This document shows, piece after piece, positions 11,560-30,995 of a DNA stretch of 33,775 nucleotides. The notes beneath the pieces were generated by a model. The model was not told where the DNA came from, did no database searches, and saw only the letters and a program-made list of their open reading frames with translations. Both the position numbers and the translations under genes were made by a program. Source of the DNA: Christensenella sp. UBA3857 (GTDB lineage Bacteria; Bacillota; Clostridia; Christensenellales; CAG-138); contig DGHD01000030.1 of NCBI GenBank assembly GCA_002392505.1, positions 1 through 33,775 on the forward strand. The letters are read 5' to 3'. Position 1 is the stretch's first letter; each line of letters opens with the position of its first letter.

Positions 11560-12198
11560 TCACGCCGCGTCCTGTTGAGCCTCTTCCTCCGCCTTATCCT
11601 TTTTCCTGATCCTTTTCAGGTTTTGTTTGTAGTTGAAAACGTACCTGATAATAAGCAGTCCCTGCAGGGGAAGACCGAGGAAATACATATACCAGGGGTT
11701 CGAGCTGATCAGGCGCAGATAGACGCAGGTAATGAGCGACCAGATGAACACCGTTCCGCAGATGAACTGCAGGGTATTCGTCTGCTCCTTCCGGTTGCAG
11801 TACCACAAAAGAAGCGCGGTCGCGGGGACGCCCCAAACGAAGATCTGCCAGATGCTCGTCTGTTTCGTGATCCGGAAATAGACGAACACGGCGCAGATGA
11901 TGAACCAGATCTCGCACGAAAGGAACATCTGCGAAAGGATCGCCTTGCTGACCTTCGGGATCGGTCCTTCGGTATTATCGCTCCCCGTGTTCTTTTCCGT
12001 TATCGCCGAAACGGGCACTTTGAACACTTCGCTCAATGCGTATATGGTCTCAAGATCGGGGACGACCTCGCCCTTTTCCCACCTTGATATGGCTTTATCT
12101 GAATAATTGATCGACTTTGCAAGCTCCGCCTGGGTAAGTCCGCGTTCTTTTCTTAACGTTATTAAGTTTTGCGATACGATTTTCCTTACGTCTTCCAT
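11560..12198 (-). CDS. XRE-family helix-turn-helix regulator with membrane domain
   Basis: About 212 residues. Residues 5-65 form a Cro/C1-type HTH (LTQAELAKSINYSDKAISRWEKG is recognisable in two pieces). Then come roughly four hydrophobic helices (about 90-190) and a basic/acidic cytoplasmic tail (KRIRKKDKAEEE). HTH regulators with small membrane domains occur widely in Clostridia; the membrane part is thought to sense envelope state or simply tether the protein. The ATG at 12198 is only 9 bases after the TATAAT of a good promoter and has no ribosome site, so a leaderless mRNA is likely. A longer form starting at 12249 would begin upstream of the promoter and is rejected. Target genes unknown. 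Confidence 0.83.
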   Translation of the reverse strand: MEDVRKIVSQNLITLRKERGLTQAELAKSINYSDKAISRWEKGEVVPDLETIYALSEVFKVPVSAITEKNTGSDNTEGPIPKVSKAILSQMFLSCEIWFIICAVFVYFRITKQTSIWQIFVWGVPATALLLWYCNRKEQTNTLQFICGTVFIWSLITCVYLRLISSNPWYMYFLGLPLQGLLIIRYVFNYKQNLKRIRKKDKAEEEAQQDAA

Positions 12199-12207
12199 AG
12201 CTCTGAC

Positions 12208-12236
12208 ATTATAATACAAGACTTCCCGAAAAGCAA
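12208..12236 (-). promoter_or_regulatory. Promoter of the XRE gene (leaderless transcript)
   Basis: On the minus strand TTGCTT (12231-12236), 17-base spacer, TATAAT (12208-12213). The ATG follows the -10 hexamer by 9 bases, so the expected transcript start falls within about 2-5 bases of the start codon and no Shine-Dalgarno sequence fits between. Confidence 0.75.
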
Positions 12237-12283
12237 GTGTTTTCGGCAATTTCTCGCTGTGGTAGAGTCCTCTCTCGCCGCAG

Positions 12284-12307
12284 TTGACACACCCCTTGAT
12301 ATAAGGG
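12284..12307. promoter_or_regulatory. TTGACA next to a small palindrome; possible operator
   Basis: TTGACA (12284-12289) precedes the perfect inverted repeat CCCTT-GATAT-AAGGG (12293-12307). No -10 hexamer lies at a normal distance, so this is not a proper promoter as read. It could be a regulator site in front of the glycosyltransferase gene. The promoter of that gene is itself unclear: a TTGACG (12339-12344) and a TATAAC (12358-12363) are only 13 bases apart. Confidence 0.3.
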
Positions 12308-12406
12308 AGTGACGCGATCCGACAGTTTCTTTACTTTTTTGACGGTCGGCGGTACACTATAACGTGAAGAAAAGCAAAAAAAGACTTGCGGAGGAACGAT
12401 CAAAAA

Positions 12407-13348
12407 ATGAAAAAAACCATTCCCGTATTCTTTGCCTGCAACGACAGATACGTCCCCTATCTGGACGTGGCGATAATCTCCATAGTTTCACACGCTTCGG
12501 ACGAAAACGATTACAGGATCACCGTCATGAAGACCGACATTACCGAGGAACATCAGGCGCTCCTGAAGAAGCATGCAAAGCGCAACGTCTCGATCGAATT
12601 CTTCGACGTGAATGAAATGCTGGAGCCCGTAAAGGATACGCTGCCGGATATGTTCCATTACAGCATAGCGGCGTTCTTCAGGTTTTTCATCGAAACGTCG
12701 TTCCCGCAGTACGATAAGGCGATCTATCTCGACAGCGACGTCGTGCTGCTGAACGACATTGCAAAGCTTTACGATACCGACGTCGAGGACTGCCTGCTTG
12801 CCGCCGCATACGAGCAGAATACCGACCGCAGCCCGATGTTCACGAATTACGTCGAAGAGATCATCGGCATCCCCTACTACACGTATTTCAATTCGGGCGT
12901 TATGGTAATGAACCTAAAGGAGTTCAGGCGTTTCGGCGTTCAGAAGAGGTTCCTCGAAATGCTTACAACGTATAATTTCGACACCCTCGCACCCGATCAG
13001 GAGTATCTAAACGTCATCTGCCACGGCAGAGTAAAGCGTTTGCCGACCGGCTGGAACAAGCACAGCTTCCCCGAAGCGCCCGAGGGAGAACTCAATCTTT
13101 GCCATTATGCCCTGGCGCATAAGCCCTGGCATTACGCGGATACGATCAACGGCGAGTATTTCTGGAAATACGCGAAGCACAGCGAATTCTACCCTTCACT
13201 TGAACAGGGGCTCAGGAACTATTCCGAACAGGATATGCTTCGCGACAGGATGGAATTCGAAGAGATTGTAAAGGGCATCGAGCAGATCAAAAACAGCGAA
13301 CGCACCTTCCGCAAGCTTTGGTTCAAGTGTGAGGTGAGCCATGCCTGA
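12407..13348 (+). CDS. Glycosyltransferase family 8 protein
   Basis: A retaining GT8-type sugar transferase of 313 residues, using a nucleotide sugar and a divalent metal. Evidence: N-terminal IPVFFACNDRYVPYL, which resembles GT8 starts, and the DxD metal site in KAIYLDSDVVLL (Asp about 109 and 111), followed by a YFNSGVMVMNL segment and a C-terminal KPWHY element, all typical of GT8. The ATG at 12407 lies 12 bases after GGAGG; an earlier TTG at 12386 is less likely. It overlaps the following acyltransferase gene by 8 bases, so both probably act on one envelope glycolipid or polymer. Acceptor and donor unknown. Confidence 0.9.
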   Translation: MKKTIPVFFACNDRYVPYLDVAIISIVSHASDENDYRITVMKTDITEEHQALLKKHAKRNVSIEFFDVNEMLEPVKDTLPDMFHYSIAAFFRFFIETSFPQYDKAIYLDSDVVLLNDIAKLYDTDVEDCLLAAAYEQNTDRSPMFTNYVEEIIGIPYYTYFNSGVMVMNLKEFRRFGVQKRFLEMLTTYNFDTLAPDQEYLNVICHGRVKRLPTGWNKHSFPEAPEGELNLCHYALAHKPWHYADTINGEYFWKYAKHSEFYPSLEQGLRNYSEQDMLRDRMEFEEIVKGIEQIKNSERTFRKLWFKCEVSHA

Positions 13349-14162
13349 CACGGAAAAAAGGAAGCGCATTGTTGCCCGCATCGCGCAGTACGAAAAGGAA
13401 GGGCGCTTCAACGAAGACGTTGAAGAAGACGATCCGCCTATACCTATAAAGCCCGGCGAAGTCGACTATACCAACAAGAAGCTTTCGAGCAGGATGAAGA
13501 CGTCGTTTGCCAACTTCCTCGGCAAGACGTTTTTCGAGAACATGATCAGGAAGGGGCAGCTGATCATCAAGGAGGTGCACGGGCTCGATTCCGTCAACGT
13601 GAGCGGAGGAGCGATCGTCACCTGCAACCATTTTCATCTCAGCGATAACTACGTCGTCTACAAGACGATAAAGCCCATCCTCAGGAAGCATCATTATCTT
13701 TATAAGGTCATAAAGGAATCGAACTATACCAACTTCAAGGGTCCGGTAAGGATCATGATGCGCCATGCGAACACCCTGCCGCTCTGCTCAAACGTGTCCG
13801 CGATGAAGGACTTCTTCGCCGGCATGGAAACGCTGCTTGCCCGCGGAGAGAAGATACTTATCTATCCGGAGCAGGCGATGTGGTTCAATTACAGAAAGCC
13901 GCGCCCGCTCAAGCCCGGCGCGTTCAGATTCGCCGCAAAGTACAACGTTCCCGTGATACCCGTGTTTATCGGCATGAAGGACTCGGACGTGCTCGACGAC
14001 GAAGGTTACAGCGTGCAGGAGCTGTACGTCCACTATCTGCCCGTGATCTATCCCGAGGACGGTCTCAGCGCGAAGGAGAACGCCGACGCGATGATGAAGA
14101 AGAACTACGCCCTGTGGGTGGAGGCATATGAATCGTTCTACGGCGAAAAGCTGACTTATTGA
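13341..14162 (+). CDS. PlsC-type acyltransferase (1-acyl-glycerol-3-phosphate acyltransferase family)
   Basis: Membrane-associated acyltransferase of 273 residues. The catalytic HX4D motif is seen as NHFHLSD (His 97, Asp 102), followed by a block with GPVRIMMRH and then IYPEQAMW (about 174-181) in the place of the FPEGTRS motif of standard PlsC, so motif III is modified (PEQ for PEG). The first ~50 residues are a charged, non-conserved extension. Translation starts at ATG 13341, 8 bases inside the GT8 gene. The GT8/acyltransferase pair suggests synthesis or decoration of a glycolipid or capsule anchor rather than bulk phospholipid synthesis, but that is inference. Confidence 0.87.
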   Translation: MPDTEKRKRIVARIAQYEKEGRFNEDVEEDDPPIPIKPGEVDYTNKKLSSRMKTSFANFLGKTFFENMIRKGQLIIKEVHGLDSVNVSGGAIVTCNHFHLSDNYVVYKTIKPILRKHHYLYKVIKESNYTNFKGPVRIMMRHANTLPLCSNVSAMKDFFAGMETLLARGEKILIYPEQAMWFNYRKPRPLKPGAFRFAAKYNVPVIPVFIGMKDSDVLDDEGYSVQELYVHYLPVIYPEDGLSAKENADAMMKKNYALWVEAYESFYGEKLTY

Positions 14163-14185
14163 ACGAACGGCAAAAACGATACGAA

Positions 14186-14216
14186 AAACCGAGGATGTTC
14201 AGACATCCTCGGTTTC
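14186..14216. terminator. Bidirectional terminator between the acyltransferase and surface-protein genes
   Basis: A 13-bp perfect stem, 14186-14198 with 14203-14215, loop TCAG. There are T-rich tails on both strands, so it can end both converging transcripts. Confidence 0.85.
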
Positions 14217-14275
14217 TTATTAGCTTATATGCTGATAATACTTGGCGGCGCCGATCGAATGCGCCGCTTATTACC

Positions 14276-15373
14276 TCAGTGCTTTTTGAAGAGCACGACG
14301 CCCGCGCCGCAAAGGACAGCAGCGGCGCCGATCACGGCAAGGCTCATCGCGCCGGTATCGGGCGGATTTACGGGATCGGTGGGTTCGGTGGGCTCGGTGG
14401 GTTCGGGTTCATCGCCGCCCTCGCCGCCGAACTCGAAAGCGGAGGAGGTGCGTACGGGCTCGGAGCCTGCGACGAACACGCCGGGGGTGAGCGCATCGGC
14501 GATCTCGTCATCGGTGAAGCCGAAGAAGCCCATATAGGTGTTATACGCAAGCTCGAGCGCGTCGAACGCGTCGCCCTCGGTCACAACGTTTTCCTCATTG
14601 CCGACCTCGGTATAGGAGACGCCCCTTGTAACGCTCCTCATATAGTCGTGACCGTTGAGGCAGACGTAATAGTGATCGAAAACGCCGTTCTCGGCATAGA
14701 ACTTCATGCCGCGGAGCTGTACGTTGAATATGTCCTTGAAGTAAATGTAGTAAGCGCCGTCTTCCTCAACGGCGAGCTTGCCGCAGGAGAAATGCGCGGG
14801 CACTTCGTACTGTCCGACAGTGACGGTGCTGTTTGCGGTGATCTTGTCCGCCTCCGCGATGCCGCGGACGATGACCTGTATCTCAGAATCAAGATGCGCG
14901 TAGACGACCAGCTCGCCATCCTCTATCGCGGCGTTGGCATAGCCGGGGAGAGGATAGCAGACGCCGATATCGAAATCGCAGTCGGAATTGGGTTCGCAGC
15001 CGAAAGCCATAACGAGCTCGTTAAGCTCAAGCCCGTCGAAGGAGAAGCGCACTTCTATCGAATTGAGTGCCTCCTCGTCAAAGCCCTCGAGCGAAGCGGG
15101 CACGGCGATCTCGCAGGAGAAGGTGACGTCCTCGCCGGGCTCGACCGCGTGATCGCTCTCCATGTACGTCCAGGAGTACTCCTCCTCGCCCCATTCATTC
15201 TCGGTAATGACGGGGTCGTTCTCGACATGCTTTACCTCAACGGGGAAAAGCGCATCCTCAGTAAGCGTGATCTCGGGCAAACCGGGATCGGTCTCGAAGC
15301 CGGTGAACGCGAATACGGGCAGAGCCGTGAGCACGAGCAGCGCGGCAGCGGTGATTGCAAGGATCTTTTTCAT
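14276..15373 (-). CDS. Cys-rich secreted surface protein with PPDTG sorting-like tail
   Basis: A 365-residue exported protein of no recognised family. A signal peptide (about 1-22, ending VFAF) is followed by a beta-rich ectodomain that contains six cysteines (in FSC, FGC, SDC, VCY, FSC, VCL), a Gly/Glu/Pro/Thr linker (about 315-335) and a C-terminal sorting-like signal: NPPDTG at 336-341, a hydrophobic helix and KKH. This fits attachment by a sortase with non-canonical specificity, or simple membrane retention. It is the last gene of the redox operon, 19 bases after the iron-sulfur gene. Six ectodomain Cys are unusual for a Gram-positive surface protein, making it a good client candidate for the thiol-redox proteins encoded upstream. 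Function otherwise unknown. Confidence 0.75.
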   Translation of the reverse strand: MKKILAITAAALLVLTALPVFAFTGFETDPGLPEITLTEDALFPVEVKHVENDPVITENEWGEEEYSWTYMESDHAVEPGEDVTFSCEIAVPASLEGFDEEALNSIEVRFSFDGLELNELVMAFGCEPNSDCDFDIGVCYPLPGYANAAIEDGELVVYAHLDSEIQVIVRGIAEADKITANSTVTVGQYEVPAHFSCGKLAVEEDGAYYIYFKDIFNVQLRGMKFYAENGVFDHYYVCLNGHDYMRSVTRGVSYTEVGNEENVVTEGDAFDALELAYNTYMGFFGFTDDEIADALTPGVFVAGSEPVRTSSAFEFGGEGGDEPEPTEPTEPTDPVNPPDTGAMSLAVIGAAAVLCGAGVVLFKKH

Positions 15374-15392
15374 AGTCTATCTCCTTAATTAA

Positions 15393-16541
15393 TTATTTGC
15401 TTTTCTTTGTGCGGATGGCGTTGCCCTCCGCTGTTTTGAACCTGAAGCCGGGGCGGATCGCCTTCTTGGGGCAGGATGCGGCGCAGGTGCCGCAGCGTAT
15501 GCACTCAAGACTGTTGGGATCCCTGACCGGGTCGACGCCCATCGGGCACGCGTGCGCGCACGCCGCGCAGCCCTTCGCTCGGTTGCAGGAGGCGTCGTCA
15601 ATGCCGTATCTGTAAAGCGAGACCTTATTGAAGAACGAGTAGATCGCGCCGAGCGGGCAGATATAGCGGCAGAACGGTCTGTAAAGGAAGAGGGAGATCA
15701 CCGTGAGCGAAGCAAGTATGCAGAGCTTCAGCAGGGTGAGGTTCCCGGCCGCGGCCGCGAGGGATCTATTCATGCTCATGAGCGGGATGCCGCCGAGGAG
15801 CATGCCCGAGGGGCATACGTATTTGCAGAACCATGGATCCGCCTTGACGAGGAGCGGAAGGAATATGACCATTATGATAAGGAACGCGTACTTGGCATAG
15901 CGGAGGTATTTATCCACGCCGAGGAAGAACCTTACGGCCTTCGGATGCTTGGAATTGGCTATGCGCATCTCGTCCCTGGGGAGCCTGAGCTTCTTTACGG
16001 GGATCTTGTAAAGGAGATCCTGCACCCAGCCGAACGGGCACAGAAGCCCGCAGACGAAGCGGCCGCAGACGGCGCCGATGATCATCAAAAGGCCGATGAG
16101 ATAGAACGCGAACCAATACTTCGGCACCTTTACGTAGGTGCCCGTCTTCTGATCGACCCAGGATTTTTTCGCGTCGAAATCGTTGAAAATGGCCTGTAAG
16201 GATCCGATCGGGCAGGCGCCCCACGCGCCGGGGCAGGAATAACAGTTCATACCAGGTACGCAGAGATACTTGAGCTTGCCCTGATAGATGGTGCCCTTGA
16301 ACCAGCCGATCATGAAGCTGTTCGTGAGCATGAAGAAGCAGGCCTGAGTGATGAGCTTGGTCCTCTGCCAGACCTTGTTGCCGAAGCGCCTTATCTGAAA
16401 CCGCTTTTTGACGAGCAGGACTATGAGCGCCGCGAGCGCCGCGGCAATGACGACGAAGGTCGCGATTATGGCTGTAATGGTAACGGGATCGGCAAGCGCG
16501 CTCTCGTCTATGCCGAAGACCCACAGGATGATGTCTTTCAT
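15393..16541 (-). CDS. Polytopic 4Fe-4S membrane protein, NapH/MauN-like
   Basis: A 382-residue membrane protein predicted to move electrons across or along the membrane. Hydrophobic segments lie near 20-45, 65-80, 140-165, 215-232 and 270-288. Four Cys (94, 100, 103, 110) in a CVPGMNCYSCPGAWG-type cluster follow the second helix. CxxxCP motifs of the NapH family lie at 164-168, 239-243 and 291-295. The C-terminus has two cytoplasmic-type ferredoxin motifs: Cys 319/325/328/332, and CIRCGTCAASCP at 347-357. The ATG follows AAGGAGG. It is preceded at 10 bases by the small CXxC gene, a frequent partner in Clostridia. The redox partner is not identified in sequence; the neighbouring thioredoxin lipoprotein is the obvious candidate. 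Confidence 0.88.
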   Translation of the reverse strand: MKDIILWVFGIDESALADPVTITAIIATFVVIAAALAALIVLLVKKRFQIRRFGNKVWQRTKLITQACFFMLTNSFMIGWFKGTIYQGKLKYLCVPGMNCYSCPGAWGACPIGSLQAIFNDFDAKKSWVDQKTGTYVKVPKYWFAFYLIGLLMIIGAVCGRFVCGLLCPFGWVQDLLYKIPVKKLRLPRDEMRIANSKHPKAVRFFLGVDKYLRYAKYAFLIIMVIFLPLLVKADPWFCKYVCPSGMLLGGIPLMSMNRSLAAAAGNLTLLKLCILASLTVISLFLYRPFCRYICPLGAIYSFFNKVSLYRYGIDDASCNRAKGCAACAHACPMGVDPVRDPNSLECIRCGTCAASCPKKAIRPGFRFKTAEGNAIRTKKSK

Positions 16542-16551
16542 GCGAGCCTCC

Positions 16552-16707
16552 TTAACCCAAGCCGATACATTCCATACAGATCGCGGCTGCCTTCCGAAGA
16601 ACGGTCAGCACCTCTTTATCCGCGATTCCGATGATAACGAAAGTAACGCCGCAGGCGAATATCGCCGCAGGGATAATGTAACGTGACGCCTTTGATTCCT
16701 TCTTCAT
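16552..16707 (-). CDS. 51-residue single-TM CXxC protein (CD1871A-family-like)
   Basis: Small protein reading MKKESKASRY at its start and ending ICMECIGLG. One hydrophobic helix (about 11-29) follows a positively charged N-terminus, so by the positive-inside rule the C-terminal CMEC pair (Cys 44, Cys 47) should face outward. Length, single helix and the C-terminal C-x-E-C-I-G-x-G tail match the CD1871A family of small clostridial CXxC proteins as I recall it; no search was run. The start ATG 16707 lies 5 bases after GGGGGA and the stop is 10 bases before the iron-sulfur gene. Likely a thiol relay between that membrane protein and the thioredoxin lipoprotein encoded just upstream. Confidence 0.85.
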   Translation of the reverse strand: MKKESKASRYIIPAAIFACGVTFVIIGIADKEVLTVLRKAAAICMECIGLG

Positions 16708-16729
16708 GTTATCCCCCATTCGATACGGC

Positions 16730-17629
16730 TCACAGCAAGCCGTCTATGATAGCGCACCATCCTTCATAGGACTGCGCGCCGTTTACACAATCATGTAATT
16801 TCCCATCTTCTAACTTGACCTTTACCAAATGCCCGTCCTGATCGACGAATACCGTCGTGGGCAGAGCAGCGGATGTAAGGAACCTGCCGAACGCCTGCTT
16901 CATGGAGTTGTTATAGCGAAGCGCGGGAAGCGAGACGTTGTTTGTGTTCATGATATAGATCGCGTTCTCAATCGCGCCGGAATCGCCGGAATCGTAGAGC
17001 ACCGTGATTACCTGCAGCTTTGAGTAATGCTGATCGAGCGCCTGAAGATGGGGCAGCTCCTCGATACAGGGACCGCACCAGGTCGCCCAGAAGTTGATCA
17101 TTGTGAGCTTCTTCTTCGCGAAAATGCTCTCGGTGTATTCCCTGTTGTTTACGATATCGTAGGTCTTGAAAACGAAATCGGGCTTCGGCGCCTCCGTCGG
17201 CTTCGGAGTCGGCGCGGGCGTGGGCGTCGGCGCGGGAGTGGGCTTCGGCGTCGGAGTGGGAGCGGGCGTCGGCGCGGGCGTGGGCTTCGGCGTCGGCGTA
17301 AGACCTGCCGTGGGCGCGGGAGTTTCCTCCCCTGTCGGCGCGGGAGTTGCCTCCTCCGTCGGCGCGGGAGTTGCTTCCTCCGTCGGCGCGGGCGTCTCCT
17401 CCCCTGTCGGCTCCGGAGTGGTTTCCTCCGTGGGAGCGGGAGTTTCCTCCTCCGTCGGCACGGGAGTTGCTTCCTCGGTCGGGAGCTCCGACGGCGTTTC
17501 GCTGACGTACGCCTGCTGCTCCGTTTCAGAGGGGCGCTTGGCTACGCGCCAGGTGTAGCACCCCGTGAGCGACAGGAGCGTCAACGCGCCGAGTATGAGC
17601 GCTGTGATTCTTTTCAAGAGGGGCTTCAC
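16730..17629 (-). CDS. TlpA-like thioredoxin lipoprotein with long Pro/Thr/Glu stalk
   Basis: Extracytoplasmic thiol-disulfide reductase of 299 residues. The signal ends in lipobox LTGC (Cys 24), so the protein is membrane-anchored. Residues about 44-150 are a stalk of PTEEATPA-type and TPAP/TPKP-type repeats that would extend the domain through the cell wall. The thioredoxin fold follows: the active site WCGPC (Cys 185, Cys 188) and cis-Pro in LPTTVF (Pro 257) are intact; two further Cys (281, 292) lie near the C-terminus. The start is GTG at 17629 with GGAGG just upstream, 12 bases after the previous stop. Probably accepts electrons from the membrane redox pair encoded downstream and reduces surface substrates. 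Oxidase function is not excluded. Confidence 0.9.
   Translation of the reverse strand: MKPLLKRITALILGALTLLSLTGCYTWRVAKRPSETEQQAYVSETPSELPTEEATPVPTEEETPAPTEETTPEPTGEETPAPTEEATPAPTEEATPAPTGEETPAPTAGLTPTPKPTPAPTPAPTPTPKPTPAPTPTPAPTPKPTEAPKPDFVFKTYDIVNNREYTESIFAKKKLTMINFWATWCGPCIEELPHLQALDQHYSKLQVITVLYDSGDSGAIENAIYIMNTNNVSLPALRYNNSMKQAFGRFLTSAALPTTVFVDQDGHLVKVKLEDGKLHDCVNGAQSYEGWCAIIDGLL
17313..17480. repeat. Coding minisatellite, 7 units of 24 bp
   Basis: Seven tandem 24-bp units encode eight-residue repeats such as TEEATPAP (residues about 51-106 of the thioredoxin lipoprotein). Units are similar but not identical. A shorter GGCGTC/GGAGTG-type repeat region encoding TPAP and TPKP continues to about 17190. 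Copy number is likely to vary between strains. Confidence 0.8.
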
Positions 17630-17641
17630 TTTGTTCCTCCG

Positions 17642-18406
17642 TTATTGGATACCCATTGTCATGCGGAGTATTATGAGCGCGTCCGTCGCTTCTATTGCGC
17701 CGCTCAGATCCATATCGCCGTGGGCGATGTTTTCCTCGGTCGGGATCTGCATCTCCAGCGCGAAGCGAAGCGCCAGGAGCGCGTCTGTCGCCTCTACCGA
17801 GCCGTCCAGATTGACGTCCCCGTCGGGAGCGGGAGTCTCGGTGGGAGCGGGAGTCTCGGTGGGCTCGGGCGTTTCGGTCGGCTCGGGAGTTTCCGCGGGA
17901 GCGGTCTCGCTCCAGAAGGCGAGCCTTTCAAGCAGGGTATCGGGCGTTGTGAACGCCGCCTGCCATGCCTCGACTATCACGCCGTGATCGTTAACGATAA
18001 AGCTCTGCGGGATATACATGGTCTGGTCCACGACGGACTGCCATATATCGTCGCAGGTGAAAACGGGGAAATCGAACCCGTTCTGCTCCATGAACGCCGC
18101 CGCGGCGGCGGGTGTGCTCGTCGCGTCGACGGCGAGGAGACCGAACACGCCGTACTCGGGATGTGAAACGGCGATCTCATTGAGCGCCGACATCTGGGAG
18201 AAGCAGCCCTGCTGCCATGTCGCCCAATACGTTACGACCGAATAGCGGTACGCAAACACGGAGCCGTCGACGGGCGTGCCGTCAATGAGTTCGGAACAGA
18301 AGCCGCTGACGTCCGTGCCTATCTGCGCGCGCTCACTCCTCTCGCCGAAGGCGGGCAGGCAGAACGTCATGCAGATCATCAGCAGAGCTGCGGCAAATCG
18401 TTTCAT
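17642..18406 (-). CDS. Secreted redoxin with C-terminal dockerin; first active-site Cys missing
   Basis: A 254-residue exported protein. Signal peptide about 1-21, then a TlpA/redoxin-like fold (30-165) with WATWQQGC at 61-68: where thioredoxins have WCxxC, the first Cys is Gln 65 and only Cys 68 remains. Two other Cys (37, 118) are in the mature domain. The cis-Pro region reads YIPQSF (131-136). A Pro/Thr/Glu linker (170-194) leads to a dockerin with two calcium-binding repeats starting GDVNLDGS and GDMDLSGA (about 196-252). It has no membrane anchor of its own. The cohesin protein encoded just upstream is its likely docking partner. A binding or chaperone role, or a one-Cys redox mechanism, is possible. 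Confidence 0.88.
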   Translation of the reverse strand: MKRFAAALLMICMTFCLPAFGERSERAQIGTDVSGFCSELIDGTPVDGSVFAYRYSVVTYWATWQQGCFSQMSALNEIAVSHPEYGVFGLLAVDATSTPAAAAAFMEQNGFDFPVFTCDDIWQSVVDQTMYIPQSFIVNDHGVIVEAWQAAFTTPDTLLERLAFWSETAPAETPEPTETPEPTETPAPTETPAPDGDVNLDGSVEATDALLALRFALEMQIPTEENIAHGDMDLSGAIEATDALIILRMTMGIQ

Positions 18407-18409
18407 CCT

Positions 18410-19255
18410 TTAGTTTTCCTTTCTGTCCTTACGCGCGATAAGGAATATGCCGAGCGCGATTAGCGCCGCGGCGACGAGTCCGCCGAGGGCGATCAGCAAG
18501 TACTTGAGCCAATTCTTGGCGGTTTTGCTGCCGTTTTCATCCTGACCGGGATCGTCTGCGCCGGGAGTCGCGTCGGGATCGGGAGTGACCTTCGATACGT
18601 CGGAGCCGGGCTCCTGCGTCGCGTCGGGATCCTGCGTCTTGTCGGGCTCCTGCGTCTTGTCGGGATCGGCGGTCTCATCGGGACCGGGGGTAGGCTTGCC
18701 GATAGGCGGAGTGGAGGATGCGGGCTCGGTCGGAGTCGTGGCGGAGCCGCCGGAGACGGAAACGGAAATCCCGCTCGCGGTGCATTCGATATCGGTCGCA
18801 TTCGACTGCCCGACGGGCAAATAGCCGAACTCTTCAACAATGAGCTTGAAGCCCGTCTTATCGCCGGCGGAGGAGAGCGCCTTGAACTTGAGCTTTACAA
18901 GCTCGCCCTCGACGGAGGCGGGATCGGTAGGCATCATTACGGCGAAGCTGACCGCCTTGCCGTCGAGCGTGATCGCACAGTTGCCGATGGCGCCTTCTTC
19001 AACGAGCTCATTATAAGCGTCGCCGTTTTTCTTGCCGAGATACTGGAAGGAGTTCTTATCGAACTCTATGCGCAGATTCATGAGATGCGCTTCATACTCG
19101 CCCTCAACGTTAACGATGATCTCCAGCTCGTCGCCCGCGTTTACAGAGGAAGGACCCGTCAAAAAGAAGTGCGGGACGCTGCTCGCAAATACGGGGAAAG
19201 CGCATACGGAAGCCAGAAGAACCGCACAGAGTACGGCAATGATGGTTTTTTTCAT
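18410..19255 (-). CDS. Membrane-anchored cohesin-domain protein
   Basis: A 281-residue surface protein. Signal peptide about 1-24 (ending VFAS), a cohesin-like beta domain (about 28-167, opening with a SVNAGDELEI-type strand and an EFDKNSFQY segment typical of cohesin-fold proteins), a Pro/Asp/Thr/Glu linker with PDKTQEPDKTQ-type repeats (168-246), a TM helix (249-274) and a short basic tail (RKDRKEN). This is the architecture of a cell-surface anchor for dockerin proteins; the next gene encodes a dockerin protein 3 bases away. The start is ATG 19255 behind AAAGGA; a longer frame from 19342 runs through the promoter and is rejected. The cohesin call rests on fold-level resemblance, so carbohydrate-binding or other beta-sandwich folds remain possible. 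Confidence 0.78.
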   Translation of the reverse strand: MKKTIIAVLCAVLLASVCAFPVFASSVPHFFLTGPSSVNAGDELEIIVNVEGEYEAHLMNLRIEFDKNSFQYLGKKNGDAYNELVEEGAIGNCAITLDGKAVSFAVMMPTDPASVEGELVKLKFKALSSAGDKTGFKLIVEEFGYLPVGQSNATDIECTASGISVSVSGGSATTPTEPASSTPPIGKPTPGPDETADPDKTQEPDKTQDPDATQEPGSDVSKVTPDPDATPGADDPGQDENGSKTAKNWLKYLLIALGGLVAAALIALGIFLIARKDRKEN

Positions 19256-19291
19256 TTCAAAAATCCTTTCAGATGTATTTAAGCCTAAACT

Positions 19292-19331
19292 TATACATGT
19301 ATATTTTATCACACAATCGAACGCTTTGCAA
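19292..19331 (-). promoter_or_regulatory. Promoter and palindrome ahead of the redox operon
   Basis: On the minus strand TTGCAA (19326-19331), a 17-base spacer, TAAAAT (19303-19308). The perfect 12-bp palindrome TATACATGTATA (19292-19303) abuts the -10 hexamer on the transcript-start side, a position suited to repression. Confidence 0.7.
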
Positions 19332-19356
19332 CCACATGCCAATATTTTTCACGGCA

Positions 19357-19385
19357 TTGCAAAAAAACGGCTTTTATATTATAAT
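19357..19385 (+). promoter_or_regulatory. Promoter of the lipoprotein-hydrolase pair
   Basis: TTGCAA (19357-19362), 17-base spacer, TATAAT (19380-19385), divergent from the redox operon promoter 26 bases away. Confidence 0.78.
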
Positions 19386-19436
19386 AGTGGACGAAAATCG
19401 GCGCGTCCGCCGGGAAAGGCATATTCCGTCCGCGAA

Positions 19437-20039
19437 ATGAATCACCGCTCTTATAAATCATCCTTGCTGTTGCTGCTGCTCGCCGTCTGCTTTGCGTTCG
19501 CGGGCTGCGGCAAGGGAAAAGACACTCCCGCAGATCCCACTTCGATCCCCGATATTTTTCAGACTCCGGACGCAGAGTCCTACGAGCTCGGCCCGAACGG
19601 TTATTACGAGGATCAGTACATCACCGCAAGCTGGTACCCGACGCTTAAATTAAGCCGCGTCGTTATGAATTATGCCGAGTATGAGGGGAAGACCCCCGCC
19701 GGCGACAGGCTTCTTTTCTCATACACGGTGGACGATTTGGGCTCCTTTGCCCAGGAGCTTTCCGGGCATGATTTCGATTCGTACCAGAAGCTCCTTTTCT
19801 CGCAGAACAGCTACTATTATCTTAAGGACTTCGGCTACGTCAAGGTGGACGGGCATGAAGCGCTGCGCGCCGTTTACGAATACGCTCCCGATGAGGAGCC
19901 CGACAAGAAGGTCTACGTGCTCCAGTACGCCTACAACGTGAACGGCTGGATCATGAGCGTCGCTTATACGAGCCTTTCCCCCATCCCCCCGGAGTGCGAG
20001 GATACGCTTAATTCGGTCAGATTCAAGGCGGGATATTGA
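19437..20039 (+). CDS. Predicted lipoprotein of unknown function
   Basis: A 200-residue protein. Signal with a lipobox AFAGC (Cys about 23), then a short linker and a globular domain rich in Tyr, Glu and Asp with an internal KVDGHEALRA segment. The overall look (small exported domain with a KVDGxEA-type strand) recalls DUF-type lipoproteins of Clostridia, but no named family is recognised. Start ATG 19437 is the first in frame after the promoter; the ribosome site is weak (GAAAGG is about 20 bases upstream). The stop is one base before the hydrolase start, so both are in one transcript. Confidence 0.75.
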   Translation: MNHRSYKSSLLLLLLAVCFAFAGCGKGKDTPADPTSIPDIFQTPDAESYELGPNGYYEDQYITASWYPTLKLSRVVMNYAEYEGKTPAGDRLLFSYTVDDLGSFAQELSGHDFDSYQKLLFSQNSYYYLKDFGYVKVDGHEALRAVYEYAPDEEPDKKVYVLQYAYNVNGWIMSVAYTSLSPIPPECEDTLNSVRFKAGY

Positions 20040-20040
20040 G

Positions 20041-20829
20041 ATGGTCATAAAGGGCATCCGCATAGAAAAAGCCGCCCGCGATAAGGAATGGGGCTTTACC
20101 GAAGCCTCCTCCGCCCGCTTTCACAGGGGAAGCGGCACGGGCATACTGATCTGCCACGGCTTCGGCGGTACGCCGTCGAACATGCTCCCGCTTTACGAAA
20201 GGGCGGTCGAAATGGGCTTCACCGTTTCTATGCCCCTCCTTGACGGGCACGCGAAAACGCTGGGCGAAATGGCAAAGACCGGGCACGAGGCATGGCGGCG
20301 CAACGTCGACGAAGCCTATTCCGCGCTCGTTTCGTCGGGCTGCGAAAGGATATTCCTCTGCGGCTTGAGCATGGGCGCGCTCCTTATGGCGGATCTTGCC
20401 GAAAGGCGCTCATCGAAGGGCGTGGACGGCGTTATGCTGATCTGCCCGCCCGTCAAAATGAAGCCGTATCTCAAATTCACGGAGTTCATCGCGCCGATCG
20501 CGCCGTACATGCTTACGGCGGACGATTTCGACCGCTCGCCCGAAGGGACGGAGGTCTACATGGGCGTCGCCTCGAAGAAGCTGAAGGACATAAGCTTCCT
20601 TGCCCGCGAGGTAAAGCGCGGCGCGGCGCGGCTCGCCTCCCCCGTCATGCTCGTCGAAGCCGGGAACGACAACCGCGTCGATCCCGATTCCTACCGGATA
20701 CTGAAAAAGCTGATCCCGCAGGCGGAGTACACGCTTATAAAAGGCGCCGCGCACGGGATACCGTACTGCCCGAAAAAGCACGAGCTGTGCGATATTTTCG
20801 AGGAGTATTTCTCAAAGCTCGATAGATAA
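20041..20829 (+). CDS. Alpha/beta hydrolase, carboxylesterase/monoacylglycerol lipase-like
   Basis: Cytoplasmic serine hydrolase of 262 residues. The oxyanion motif HGFGGTP is at 39-45, the nucleophile elbow GLSMG at 108-112 (Ser 110), the likely acid in EAGNDNRVDP (Asp 210 or 214) and the catalytic His in GAAHGIPY (His 238). Size and the HGFGG/GLSMG pair fit the Est30-type carboxylesterases and bacterial monoacylglycerol lipases. No signal peptide. It directly follows a lipoprotein gene. The substrate is probably a short acyl ester, but this is a family default. Confidence 0.9.
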   Translation: MVIKGIRIEKAARDKEWGFTEASSARFHRGSGTGILICHGFGGTPSNMLPLYERAVEMGFTVSMPLLDGHAKTLGEMAKTGHEAWRRNVDEAYSALVSSGCERIFLCGLSMGALLMADLAERRSSKGVDGVMLICPPVKMKPYLKFTEFIAPIAPYMLTADDFDRSPEGTEVYMGVASKKLKDISFLAREVKRGAARLASPVMLVEAGNDNRVDPDSYRILKKLIPQAEYTLIKGAAHGIPYCPKKHELCDIFEEYFSKLDR

Positions 20830-20845
20830 TAAAACGATACAAAAA

Positions 20846-20880
20846 GACTCCCGGGCCAAGTCGCCCGGGAGCCTTTTTTT
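20846..20880. terminator. Bidirectional terminator, hydrolase versus zinc-ribbon gene
   Basis: CTCCCGGGC (20848-20856) pairs with GCCCGGGAG (20863-20871), 6-base loop, followed by T7 on the plus strand and preceded by A5 that gives a T run on the minus strand. Confidence 0.88.
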
Positions 20881-20885
20881 CGCAA

Positions 20886-21392
20886 TTACTTCTTGAATAC
20901 CTTGTTCAGTATGTCTATCTTGCCGATAAGGGGAAGCTCCTTCGCCTTGCCGGAGAGCGCGTTGACGATGCCGATAACGGCGAACACGCCGACGGCGAGC
21001 ATTACCGCGCCTGCGACGAGATAAAGCAGCACGGCGGGGATCGCCCAAAGCGCCTTATGTGTTCCGGCGGCGATGCCGATGAATACCGAGCCGAGCACAT
21101 AGATCAGCGTAAAAACGATTGCCGCTGCGATCTCGAACACGAGGAAGGTTATGCCCTGCCTTGCGTGGAACTGAGCGAACTTCGAATTCTTCTTTGCAAA
21201 ATAGGGTATCAGCACGAGCATACCGAGATACGAAAGCACGGAGATCCACTTGTTGCTCTCGATATCCTGCTTGTCGTACTCCTCCACCACCTCGACCCTT
21301 TCGGGCTCCTCGGCGGCAAACCTCGCTCCGCAGGCGGGGCAGGTCTCGGGCGCGCCATCGTAATAAGCGCCGCATTCTTTACAAATTGCCAT
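20886..21392 (-). CDS. Zinc-ribbon membrane protein, DUF4870-like
   Basis: A 168-residue protein. N-terminal zinc ribbon with CKEC and CPAC pairs (residues about 4-22), an acidic linker, then a DUF4870-like membrane domain with three or four helices; the stretch FHARQGITFLVFE is a recognisable signature of that domain, whose role is unknown. Ribosome site AAAGGA precedes the ATG at 21392. It starts 46 bases after valS with no clear terminator between, so it may be read from the valS transcript. Confidence 0.83.
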   Translation of the reverse strand: MAICKECGAYYDGAPETCPACGARFAAEEPERVEVVEEYDKQDIESNKWISVLSYLGMLVLIPYFAKKNSKFAQFHARQGITFLVFEIAAAIVFTLIYVLGSVFIGIAAGTHKALWAIPAVLLYLVAGAVMLAVGVFAVIGIVNALSGKAKELPLIGKIDILNKVFKK

Positions 21393-21438
21393 TTAATATC
21401 CTTTCCCGGCTTATCTGCCGACTTTTTTGTTTATGATA

Positions 21439-24096
21439 TTACTTTTTGAGCTCCGCTATGCGGGCGAGCAGCTTCTCATAGAGCTCCTTCGCGGCGGCGA
21501 GCTTCGCTCTTTCCTCGTTCACGACCTTTTCGGGCGCCTTCGCCATGAAGCCCTGATTCGAGAGCTTGCCTTCCGCGCGCTTTATCTCGCCCTCTATGCG
21601 GACGCGTTCCTTATCGAGGCGCGCGAGCTCCTTCTCAATATCGATGAGCTCGTTCAGGGGGATGAACGCGTCGCCCACGCGGGAAACGACGGAGACCGCG
21701 TCGGGCGCGATGCCTTCCTTGTCGAGCTTTACCGTCACCTCGGAAGCGCCGGCGAGCTTGTTGAAGTAGGGCGCCGCCTCGCGCACGGAGTTCACGTTTG
21801 CCTCGGCGGTAACAATGAACATATGCGCGCGCTTTGCGGGGGGCACGTTCATCTCTGCGCGCACGTTCCTTATCGCGCGGACGAGCTCCATTATGCCGTC
21901 CATGCACTCCGCGTCGGAAGCGAAATCGAAGCCTTCCTCATATTTGGGCCAGCTCTCGAGCATTATCGTCTCGCCGGAGCCGGGCAGCCTGGTATAGATA
22001 TCCTCCGTAATGAAGGGCATAAACGGGTGCAGAAGCTTCATCGAATCGCCGAGCACGCGCACGAGTATCGCGCGGACGTTCTTCTTGGCTTCCTCATCCT
22101 CGCCGTAGAGGCGGGGCTTCGCCATCTCGATGTACCAGTCGCAGAGCTCCGTCCAGATGAAGGAGTAGATCTTCTCCACCGCGAGATTGAGGTCGAACGA
22201 ATCGATGTTCTGGGTCGCCTCGCGCACGATGTTGTTGAGCCGCGACAGTATCCACTTATCGGCAATGTCGAGCTTCGTCATGTCGATATCGCCTATCTCG
22301 CCTTCGCCGAGATTCATCATCACGAAGCGGGAGGCGTTGTACACCTTGTTGCAGAAATTCCTTGCGGCTTCGACCTTTTTGATCTGGAAGCGCATATCGG
22401 TGCCCGCGGCGGTGCCGCTCGTAAGAGAGAAGCGCAGCGAATCCGCGCCGTAATCCTTTATTATCTCAAGCGGATCTATGCCATTGCCCAGGGACTTCGA
22501 CATCTTTCTGCCGAGCTCGTCCCTTACCATGCCGTGTATGAACACGTGATCGAAGGGGACCTCGTCCATGGCGTAGAGCCCGAACATTATCATCCTCGCG
22601 ATCCAGAAGAACACGAGATCGTAGCCCGTGGCGAGGGTAGACGTGGGATAGTAGTACTTGAGCTCCTCCGTCTTCTCGGGCCAGCCGAGCGTGGAGAAGG
22701 GCCACATACCCGAGGAGAACCAGGTATCGAGCACGTCCTCATCCTGATGCATGGCGCCGCCGCACTTGGGGCATTTCGCGGGCGCTTCCGCCGCGACGAC
22801 GGTCTCGCCGCAGTCGTCGCAGTAATAGGCGGGGATCCTGTGCCCCCACCAGAGCTGGCGGGAGATGCACCAATCCTTTATGTTGTACATCCAGTTGAAA
22901 TAGGTCTGCGCGTACCTTTCGGGCACGAACTTGATGCGCCCGTCCTCCACCGCCTTTATAGCGGGCTCGGCAAGGTCCTTAATAGCCACGAACCACTGCT
23001 TGGAGACCATCGGCTCGATGGTGGTATGGCAACGGTAGCAGGTGCCTACGTTATGCGTATAGGGCTCCACCTTTACAAGGCTGCCCGCCTTTTCGAGATC
23101 CTCCACGAACACCTTGCGGCATTCCTTCGTGGTGAGCCCCGCGTAGCTTCCGCCGAGCTCGTTTATATGCCCGTCCTCTGTGAAGACGCACATGCCGGGA
23201 AGCCCCGTCCTGATGCCCACCTCGAAGTCGTTGGGATCGTGCGAGGGGGTGATCTTCACGGCGCCGGTGCCGAAATCCATCTCGACGTATTCATCCGCCA
23301 CGATGGGTATCTCCCTGCCCACGACGGGCACAACGACCGTCTTGCCGACCAGATCGGCATAGCGCTCGTCGTTGGGGTTGACCGCGATGCCCGTATCGCC
23401 GAGGATCGTCTCCGGGCGGGTGGTGGCGACGGTTATCGAATAGCTCTTGTCCGGCGCGTCGTAACGGACGTGCCAGAGGTTGGAGGGCTGCTCCTCAAAT
23501 TCCACCTCGGCGTTCGAGATGGCGGTCTTGCAGCAGGGACACCAGTTGACGATGCGGTCGCCGCGGTAGATCTTGCCCTTGTTGTAAAGGTCGATGAACA
23601 CCTTCTGAACGGCTTTGGAACAGCCTTCGTCCATGGTGAAGCGCTCGCGCTCCCAATCGCAGGAGGAGCCCAGCTTCCTTAGCTGCTTGACTATCCTGCC
23701 GCCGAATTCGTCCCTCCACGCCCAGGCGCGGCGCATGAACTCATCGCGGCCGATATCCTTTTTGGTAAGCCCTTCCTTCGCCATGCGCTCGACGATCTTG
23801 ACCTCCGTCGCGATGGAGGCGTGATCCGTGCCGGGCAGCCACAGCGTTTCGTAGCCGCACATGCGCTTGTAGCGGATCAGTATGTCCTGCATGGTCTCGT
23901 CAAGCGCGTGCCCCATGTGGAGCTGACCCGTAATGTTGGGCGGCGGTATGACGATGGTGTAGGGCTTTTTGTCGGGATTAGGAGCGGAATGGAAATACCC
24001 CGACTCCTCCCACTTTTTGTAAAGACGATCCTCAACTGCCGAGGGATCGTACGTTTTGGGCATTTCTTCAATGCCCGTCCTGTGTTCTTCACACAT
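21439..24096 (-). CDS. valS: Valine--tRNA ligase
   Basis: Class I aminoacyl-tRNA synthetase of 885 residues that charges tRNA-Val and edits threonine. The HIGH motif appears as HMGH at 60-63 within PPPNITGQLHMGHAL, and KMSKS at 531-535. The large CP1 editing insertion, the anticodon-binding domain and a C-terminal coiled-coil arm with ELARLDKERVRIEGE-type heptads (about 815-885) are all present, giving the usual ValS length. The start is ATG 24096 behind GGAGGT, 8 bases spaced; a second in-frame Met lies 11 residues on. An apparent extension to 24249 is the T-box leader read in frame, and is rejected. Control is by the T-box upstream. Confidence 0.97.
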   Translation of the reverse strand: MCEEHRTGIEEMPKTYDPSAVEDRLYKKWEESGYFHSAPNPDKKPYTIVIPPPNITGQLHMGHALDETMQDILIRYKRMCGYETLWLPGTDHASIATEVKIVERMAKEGLTKKDIGRDEFMRRAWAWRDEFGGRIVKQLRKLGSSCDWERERFTMDEGCSKAVQKVFIDLYNKGKIYRGDRIVNWCPCCKTAISNAEVEFEEQPSNLWHVRYDAPDKSYSITVATTRPETILGDTGIAVNPNDERYADLVGKTVVVPVVGREIPIVADEYVEMDFGTGAVKITPSHDPNDFEVGIRTGLPGMCVFTEDGHINELGGSYAGLTTKECRKVFVEDLEKAGSLVKVEPYTHNVGTCYRCHTTIEPMVSKQWFVAIKDLAEPAIKAVEDGRIKFVPERYAQTYFNWMYNIKDWCISRQLWWGHRIPAYYCDDCGETVVAAEAPAKCPKCGGAMHQDEDVLDTWFSSGMWPFSTLGWPEKTEELKYYYPTSTLATGYDLVFFWIARMIMFGLYAMDEVPFDHVFIHGMVRDELGRKMSKSLGNGIDPLEIIKDYGADSLRFSLTSGTAAGTDMRFQIKKVEAARNFCNKVYNASRFVMMNLGEGEIGDIDMTKLDIADKWILSRLNNIVREATQNIDSFDLNLAVEKIYSFIWTELCDWYIEMAKPRLYGEDEEAKKNVRAILVRVLGDSMKLLHPFMPFITEDIYTRLPGSGETIMLESWPKYEEGFDFASDAECMDGIMELVRAIRNVRAEMNVPPAKRAHMFIVTAEANVNSVREAAPYFNKLAGASEVTVKLDKEGIAPDAVSVVSRVGDAFIPLNELIDIEKELARLDKERVRIEGEIKRAEGKLSNQGFMAKAPEKVVNEERAKLAAAKELYEKLLARIAELKK

Positions 24097-24120
24097 TTTT
24101 TTGTACCTCCGAACAAAATA

Positions 24121-24366
24121 ATACGTCCCTCCCGCCAAAGGACGAGAGGGACGCTCGTGGTACCACCTTTGTTGAACGGGGCTTGCCCCGCTCCACTTGA
24201 TATGCGCTGTATCGGGCGCGCCCGTTCCCGCTCCCCGGGCGACCTTCACGGACCCTTATGCCGATGGCTTTCACCTGACCCATCTCTCTTATAGACAACG
24301 GTTTTCCGCTACTCCTCCCGGATCAAAACAGGGGATATAAGCTTATGCGAAAACAAGCTTCGCATT
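24121..24366 (-). promoter_or_regulatory. Valine T-box leader of valS
   Basis: The T-box sequence AGGTGGTACCACG (reverse complement of 24156-24168) sits upstream of a terminator with stem GTCCCTC/GAGGGAC (24146-24152 with 24125-24131) and a T-rich tail. Further upstream are Stem I features: a GGGAGGAGTAG segment, AGAGAG, GGTGAAAGCC and CCGTGAAGG. The GTC at 24251-24253, just before CGTGAAGG, is the best specifier codon (Val). Uncharged tRNA-Val would bind the specifier and T-box loop and stop termination. Confidence 0.92.
24125..24152 (-). terminator. T-box regulated terminator
   Basis: Competing terminator of the valS leader: 7-bp outer stem GTCCCTC/GAGGGAC with extra inner pairs, followed by GTATTATTTT. 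It shares bases with the antiterminator that forms around the T-box sequence. Confidence 0.85.
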
Positions 24367-30690: not shown

Positions 30691-30712
30691 TGGATCCTCC
30701 TTTGAGACCGTA

Positions 30713-30728
30713 TTGTCACAGATGACAA
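30713..30728. promoter_or_regulatory. TTGTCA/TGACAA dyad in the metallopeptidase leader
   Basis: Inverted repeat TTGTCA-CAGA-TGACAA lies between the -10 and the ribosome site, a plausible operator. Confidence 0.5.
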
Positions 30729-30730
30729 GC

Positions 30731-30741
30731 GGATTATAGCA
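30731..30741 (-). promoter_or_regulatory. Extended -10 promoter of the metallopeptidase gene
   Basis: On the minus strand TGCTATAAT fits an extended -10 (TGN-TATAAT); no good -35 hexamer is seen 17 bases upstream. Approximate position. Confidence 0.55.
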
Positions 30742-30995
30742 TATCTCTTTCAAACGCCGCCAGCGAAAAAACAGCATTATATCATATATGCCGAAAATGT
30801 CGTTTTTCCCCTCCGAATATGGCAAAATTGCGGCGGCCGTGACGGACGTCCGCATTCCGCTCCCCTGCCGCAGAGCGTGTAAAATGCTTGTAAAAAATCG
30901 AAATTGCCTGTTTAAAAAAGCGCCGGGATGTATTATGATATAGACGTGAAAAAATCGAAAGGAAGCCCGCCTAAAGTCGGCGGGCGGCAAGGAAC

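Follow-up and report, generated by a model that had tools for sequence, protein, structure and literature searches.

We analyzed a window of 33,775 nucleotides, the entire contig C10 (DGHD01000030.1) of a 1.42 Mb, 53.5% complete genome (G000) of Christensenella sp. UBA3857 (assembly GCA_002392505.1). On its minus strand the window carries a row of six genes that we interpret, with moderate confidence, as two linked modules: a trans-membrane relay that would reduce disulfides outside the cell and a non-catalytic redoxin fold that would be held by a cohesin. The relay module would comprise a TlpA-type lipoprotein, a small CD1871A family protein, and a NapH-like Fe-S membrane protein; the docking module would comprise a membrane-anchored single cohesin and a dockerin protein that places the redoxin fold on the cell surface. 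The sixth gene encodes a surface protein. The intergenic gaps are 3, 12, 22, 10, and 19 bases, and the gene order, strand, and spacing given in an earlier, sequence-only reading of this DNA are all borne out by the open reading frame coordinates. The host is an uncultured clostridial bacterium, probably of the gut or rumen; the nearest named loci belong to clostridial metagenome-assembled genomes, including one record titled water-buffalo rumen. Comparisons were made within the genus (13 genomes) and the family (103 genomes), with G000 counted in both. In order of transcription, the features are as follows.

19303..19331, minus strand: promoter-like site (TTGCAA-17-TAAAAT, extended TG), just under 50 bases 5' of the first ATG; from a consensus scan, which is not evidence of function
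18410..19255, minus strand: single-cohesin protein, 281 amino acids, from the ATG at 19255; the same frame is also open from an upstream TTG
17642..18406, minus strand: secreted redoxin-fold protein with a C-terminal type I dockerin, 254 amino acids; WATWQQGC, without a catalytic CXXC
16730..17629, minus strand: TlpA/ResA-type thioredoxin lipoprotein with a Pro/Thr stalk, 299 amino acids; WATWCGPC intact
16552..16707, minus strand: CD1871A family single-helix CXXC protein, 51 amino acids; alternative ATG 12 bases upstream
15393..16541, minus strand: NapH-like Fe-S membrane protein, 382 amino acids; PF12801
14276..15373, minus strand: surface protein with an Ig-like pilin/adhesin-type fold and a PPDTG sortase-type tail, 365 amino acids; C132-X6-C139 pair
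14184..14217, minus strand: 15-pair hairpin and T-run 3' of the last gene, likely terminator

The proposal of a single promoter and a terminator-free interior holds in part: the promoter-like site does lie upstream, but one weak terminator-like site falls within the NapH-like gene (16045). Given that the region has 6 promoter-like sites against 2.2 in shuffled sequences and 6 terminator-like sites against 5.8, we treat these calls as weak evidence.

The predicted trans-membrane relay

The cohesin, dockerin, TlpA-type thioredoxin, CXXC, and NapH-like identities proposed from the letters alone were each recovered above a curated Pfam or NCBIfam cut-off. The TlpA-type lipoprotein has a lipobox-like LTGC and matches the Redoxin family (PF08534) with 46.1 bits (cut-off, 26.6). 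Its CXXC lies at positions 185 and 188, and it thus has both the redoxin fold and the W-C-x-x-C active site of TlpA/ResA proteins; its score against the NCBI ResA model is 47.3, under the cut-off of 170. The 51-amino acid protein belongs to the CD1871A family (NF040920; 45.9 bits, cut-off 32), for which we know of no assigned function and for which a literature search under the term CD1871A returned no paper. Its CXXC, at positions 44 and 47, is conserved without exception in 87 deduplicated sequences, and in 87 of 90 it lies four residues before the C-terminus.

The NapH-like protein is a member of the NapH-like Fe-S proteins (Fer4_5, PF12801; 62.3 bits, cut-off 22) and is rich in conserved cysteines. 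A CX5CX2CX6C loop at positions 94, 100, 103, and 110 keeps its cysteines in 99 to 101 of 102 sequences; three CX3CP pairs are present at 164/168 (101 of 102) and at 239/243 and 291/295 (102 of 102), and all eight cysteines of two 4Fe-4S ferredoxin motifs are found in every one of the 102. Hydropathy gives four helices, and hydropathy together with charge places the ferredoxin part inside the cell. The 94–110 loop and the 239/243 pair would lie outside, on the assumption that a fifth helix at approximately 63–83 was missed by the hydropathy cut-off. An assignment to NapH proper, of periplasmic nitrate reductase, was rejected (44.9 versus 213 for TIGR02163 and 44.9 versus 234 for NF007013). A homolog in another family genome (L126:6707-8080, genome G005) has an N-terminal extension of approximately 100 amino acids that, by eye, resembles a signal-peptidase-type domain.

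CD1871A is present in 80 of the 103 family genomes, and we fetched its surroundings for 60 of the 79 genomes other than G000. A CcdA/DsbD match (PF02683) occurs in 39 of the 103 genomes; none of the six operon proteins matches PF02683, and the match in G000 lies on contig C51. Among genomes with CD1871A, 26 have CcdA and 54 do not, and among those without CD1871A the counts are 13 and 10. A CXXC-containing TlpA- or redoxin-type gene adjoins the CD1871A–NapH pair in 33 of 35 CcdA-lacking loci examined and in 23 of 25 CcdA-bearing ones.

Based on the invariant cysteine sets, the topology estimate, the adjacency of TlpA-type genes, and the CcdA-lacking loci, we infer a reductive relay that runs from the NapH-like protein through CD1871A to TlpA. 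Ferredoxin-type clusters in the cytoplasm would supply electrons, which would cross the membrane via the clusters of the NapH-like protein and reduce at the outer face the membrane-bound CXXC of CD1871A and then the CXXC of the TlpA lipoprotein, a direction suggested by textbook potentials. CcdA/DsbD is the known route by which thiols are kept reduced outside the cell, and the relay module would do that job here. A trans-membrane relay was also part of the sequence-only reading; its NapH-like, CXXC, and TlpA portion is plausible given the invariant cysteines and the adjacent TlpA-type genes, whereas passage of electrons via the docked redoxin is not supported.

The docked redoxin, its predicted anchor, and the surface protein

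The dockerin-bearing redoxin has QQGC in place of CXXC and thus lacks the catalytic motif of TlpA/ResA thiol-disulfide oxidoreductases. Its matches to Pfam redoxin models are below cut-off (24.4 versus 26; 22.3 versus 26.6), and it scores 47.7 bits against the NCBI ResA model (cut-off, 170). In an alignment of 24 docked redoxins, composed of the window protein and 23 proteins retrieved from the database by their resemblance to it, the first catalytic cysteine is missing throughout and the second is retained in 17 and lost in 7; Trp64 and P133, the latter at what we take to be the position of the thioredoxin-fold cis-Pro, are invariant. A second set of 26 docked or related redoxins, each scoring at least 30 bits, was drawn from the fetched loci, leaving out two hits that matched through the dockerin and the L141 fragment, which fell short of the bit limit. 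In its ten genus members the first cysteine is absent from all and the second from four, and of its 16 members from outside the genus 14 have CGPC and the other two SGPC or SGNC.

The ratio of nonsynonymous to synonymous substitution rates (dN/dS) was computed for a single species pair, the window and genome G089: it is 0.14 in the redoxin part and 0.025 in the dockerin, with values of 0.23 in the cohesin domain and 0.57 in the linker and helix of the cohesin protein. Given that the first cysteine is lost and yet dN/dS is 0.14, these comparisons indicate that the docked redoxin is under purifying selection and is maintained for something other than CXXC chemistry. We posit that it would have lost thiol catalysis and been retained as a binding protein, with a protein or peptide as the probable ligand on its conserved cis-Pro side. 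The lost active site rules out an active two-cysteine member of the relay, and an electron-carrier role for this protein is not supported. Elsewhere in G000, on contig C18 (9406-10587; L179), a second dockerin-bearing redoxin has an intact CGPC and a Flg_new repeat; this catalytic protein may act in trans.

The anchor protein consists of a signal peptide, one cohesin, an acidic Pro/Thr linker, and a C-terminal trans-membrane helix. The cohesin domain (PF00963) scores 35.4 bits in the Pfam scan (cut-off, 24.1) and 37.1 in the genome search, and an AlphaFold2 model, built from an input alignment of 7 sequences, is beta-rich with a predicted local distance difference test score of 88–97 over the domain block (whole-chain mean, 70.6). 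A tree of 69 cohesin domains groups the 14 operon cohesins, among them those of G083, G086, and G089, in a single clade (98). The 55 others fall outside it and were taken from a triple-cohesin protein (scaffoldin) on contig C51 of G000 and from 18 stretches chosen among the matches listed. By its PF00963 score, the beta domain at 18.4–19.3 kb is a cohesin, as had been supposed, and it belongs to the separate operon clade of the tree.

The type I dockerin of the redoxin (PF00404; 36.5 bits, cut-off 22.9) shows two Ca-binding repeats in the alignment. Of the 14 operon dockerins, 12 have a histidine ahead of the second repeat, versus 1 of the 17 remaining class A dockerins in G000; it is present in 22 of the 23 database relatives of the docked redoxin and in 0 of 15 dockerins of the genera that have the docked redoxin without the cohesin. 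Based on the cohesin clade and this histidine signature, both of them indirect, we predict that the operon cohesin is a dedicated anchor that pairs with the operon dockerin.

The wider dockerin complement of G000 falls by eye into two sequence classes, with 25 of its 26 matches above cut-off. No glycoside hydrolase was found in the 18 dockerin proteins scanned (long ones were cut at about 500 residues, leaving out N-terminal parts); these include a 5'-nucleotidase, two CotH proteins, a subtilase, and LRR and Big_2 proteins, and their two carbohydrate-binding matches are both below cut-off. A large dockerin protein in the window itself (27757-30990, minus strand; Flg_new, MucBP, Big_2) carries the genome's other dockerin class, DMKDVTALNAYLVNSG. 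In genome G102 (locus L173), a 475-amino acid dockerin protein directly follows the core triad, approximately 0.8 kb downstream of the NapH start, in a cluster without a docked redoxin.

The surface protein matches no family above cut-off in the Pfam and NCBIfam scans. It had been described as a cysteine-rich, sortase-tailed protein, and the ectodomain does have six cysteines and the C-terminus a sortase-like tail; however, the term cysteine-rich goes too far, as only the C132 and C139 pair is invariant in 34 sequences, and the tail is below the curated cut-offs (19.3 versus 23.5; 12.8 versus 15.9). Two sortase matches are present in G000, on contigs C48 and C5. We suggest that this Ig-like protein, with its invariant CX6C pair, would be the likely client of the relay. 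Two homologs (L117:7712-8854 in G082, and P0019) end in a dockerin instead of a PPxTG-type tail, a domain architecture that fits the surface protein being able to sit on a cohesin. In the profile of the 103 family genomes, the full-length surface protein occurs in 20, and the same 20 have the docked redoxin and the relay together; any match at an E value of 0.001 occurs in 24, four of which have a short tail match only. The protein was not found in G083, G086, G087, or the core-only G023, and the incomplete G089 shows the tail match only. Genome G088 has a second copy away from the operon (C1:17473-18429) with 47% identity to that of the window.

Gene neighborhoods and alternative explanations

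All six genes are present in 9 of the 60 fetched loci, eight of them in the genus and the ninth in G003, a member of another genus whose locus carries an additional CGPC redoxin and lacks the valS, esterase, and dehydrogenase genes that flank the operon in the genus. With the window included, the six-gene set is found in 9 of the 13 genus genomes; the proposed conserved unit is thus upheld, and the possibility that the six genes are rarely neighbors is ruled out. A five-gene set, composed of one or more docked redoxins, TlpA, CD1871A, NapH, and the surface protein without an adjacent cohesin, occurs in 10 loci (nine in genus g13 and one, G032, in g16). The largest group, 40 of the 60, has CD1871A–NapH in a cluster that lacks docked redoxin, cohesin, and surface protein alike, and in 37 of these 40 a CXXC-containing gene of the TlpA or redoxin type lies no more than 2.5 kb away on the same strand. 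The core extends beyond the family to records titled Lachnospiraceae, Erysipelotrichaceae, Miniphocaeibacter, Treponema, and some deltaproteobacteria, with CD1871A or TlpA undetected in some of these loci; by eye, it is often a stand-alone three-gene set.

In a tree of 102 NapH sequences, the core, docked, and six-gene states require 2 changes, the minimum, against a mean of 20.2 in shuffles, of which 0 of 200 were as low, and the six-gene set lies on one side of a branch with support of 98. This tree is a quick search with support from the Shimodaira–Hasegawa-like approximate likelihood ratio test only, and the four-gene G087 was labelled as six-gene. The tree shows a nested assembly, in which the core came first, the docked redoxin and surface protein followed, and the cohesin was added last.

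The two modules are also separable. Genomes G083 and G086 (90% and 94% complete) retain the adjacent cohesin and docked redoxin between the usual genus flanks, and in neither did we find a CD1871A match or, except for a 19.5-bit ferredoxin match in G086, a NapH-like relative. In G089 (61% complete) the locus is broken by a contig end inside TlpA. The claim of one inseparable system is not supported, given that G083 and G086 keep docking without the relay and that the 40 core-only relatives keep CD1871A–NapH without docking or the surface protein. A divergent gene for a secreted or lipoprotein-like protein with no Pfam match (window 19437-20039, plus strand) adjoins the operon in 8 of the 12 genus loci compared.

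Several observations weigh against the reading of two linked modules. Within the genus, the flanking valS, esterase, and 2-hydroxyacid dehydrogenase genes are conserved as well, so the neighborhood there is not independent evidence and we dropped genus-internal conservation as proof of linkage. The one remaining fetched locus, that of genome G087 (L120), has a cohesin, a docked redoxin (SADC), CD1871A, and NapH with no TlpA or surface protein beside them (a 25% TlpA match was taken, by position, as the docked redoxin itself). In 3 of the 40 core-only loci, the search out to 2.5 kb found no TlpA-type gene with a CXXC. The positive-inside count favors an outer CXXC in 56 of 90 CD1871A sequences, with 22 ties and 12 opposed. 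All 13 genus genomes have a CcdA/DsbD match, so the triad is not the sole possible TlpA reductant in the genus, and across the family CcdA and CD1871A are weakly anticorrelated (Fisher p 0.051, with no correction for kinship). With regard to docking, neither of the two surface-protein dockerins has the histidine, and a poorly resolved dockerin tree splits the operon dockerins (4 changes, not one clade). Because the 26 dockerin matches of G000 are accompanied by 5 cohesin domains besides that of the operon, pairing within the operon need not be exclusive.

These observations invite other explanations. Two independent surface modules that are co-located and co-transcribed, with no functional link between relay and docking, would agree with separability in both directions and with the conserved genus flanks. 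We regard this as rather unlikely given that the association recurs in G003 with different flanking genes and, without a cohesin, in the nine g13 genomes and G032 (flanks were compared in four of these loci), and that the full-length surface protein is found only where both modules are present (20 of 20). A single system, with a docked redoxin that acts as a thiol carrier from its place on the cohesin anchor and has the surface protein as its client, draws on the co-directional, tightly spaced genes and on the CGPC kept in 14 of the 16 non-genus redoxins, because of which the ancestral docked redoxin was probably active. The intact CGPC of the C18 protein in the same genome points the same way, and the second cysteine kept in most docked redoxins leaves room for one-cysteine chemistry. 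However, the complete absence of the first cysteine, the loss of the second in 7 of 24, and the persistence of the cohesin and docked redoxin in the two genomes without a detected relay, G083 and G086, make this explanation quite improbable.

The relay might instead run in reverse, with CD1871A and TlpA oxidizing surface thiols and electrons passing inward to ferredoxin, which would supply a missing path of oxidative folding. VKOR and DsbB have no match in any of the 103 family genomes, and yet the surface protein has an invariant cysteine pair. Nevertheless, moving electrons from thiols to ferredoxin would go uphill at textbook potentials, and proteins of the TlpA/ResA type usually act as reductants, so we consider a reversed relay very doubtful and retain the reading of a reductive relay linked to a docking module.

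Relation to known systems and significance

The relay can be compared with the pneumococcal CcdA-Etrx1/Etrx2-MsrAB2 system, in which surface thioredoxin-fold lipoproteins are fed across the membrane (PMC3914529). The systems are alike in that a surface thioredoxin-fold lipoprotein would be fed across the membrane and act outside the cell. They differ in the proposed donor, here the NapH-like Fe-S protein and the 51-amino acid CXXC protein rather than CcdA, in the absence of an MsrA or MsrB domain from the Pfam matches of the six proteins, and in the addition of a cohesin and a dockerin. NapH-like proteins are described as modular trans-membrane electron carriers that occur with flavin mononucleotide (FMN) proteins, with thioredoxin-like proteins as another class of mediator (PMC8238504). 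The operon shares with these flavinylated systems a multi-pass Fer4_5 (PF12801) Fe-S protein proposed for trans-membrane electron transfer and modular partners; the partner here, however, would be the CXXC/TlpA pair, a pairing not named in the available part of that paper. No FMN-binding domain is present among the Pfam matches of the six proteins, the divergent neighbor, or six further neighbors (11560 to 24249). The same source describes systems composed of DsbD, a thioredoxin-like protein, and DUF4266, a small CXC protein (PMC8238504). These likewise place a small protein with a cysteine pair beside a thioredoxin-like protein; compared by description only, they use a DsbD thiol relay, in contrast to the Fe-S and CXXC proteins here.

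The docking module resembles assemblies of the cellulosome and mucinolysome type (PMC12997984) in that the genome encodes dockerin proteins, a multi-cohesin scaffoldin, and a single-cohesin anchor. Unlike those assemblies, the anchor sits in a redox operon; no glycoside hydrolase was seen in the scanned portions of 18 dockerin proteins. The portion of the literature that we searched described no system of NapH-like, CXXC, and TlpA proteins and no cohesin-docked redoxin.

The operon suggests an Fe-S alternative to the CcdA/DsbD route for extracellular thiol reduction, one that bears on how anaerobes without CcdA or DsbD supply electrons to extracytoplasmic thioredoxins. The three-gene core is widespread but unstudied, and it probably carries electrons across the membrane to a thioredoxin on the cell surface. 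More tentatively, and with somewhat less confidence than we have in the two modules, we propose that the NapH-like and CD1871A proteins may form an undescribed class of trans-membrane disulfide reductase that is driven by ferredoxin-type clusters, is widespread in anaerobes, and replaces CcdA in many of them, and that may have been combined in this lineage with a dedicated cohesin anchor and a domesticated, catalytically dead redoxin to form a surface redox platform. The constant company of a NapH-like protein and the usual presence of a TlpA-type gene give the CD1871A family a directly testable role. With its cargo of a conserved but dead thioredoxin fold, the cohesin would show cohesin–dockerin docking put to a use other than the breakdown of polysaccharides.

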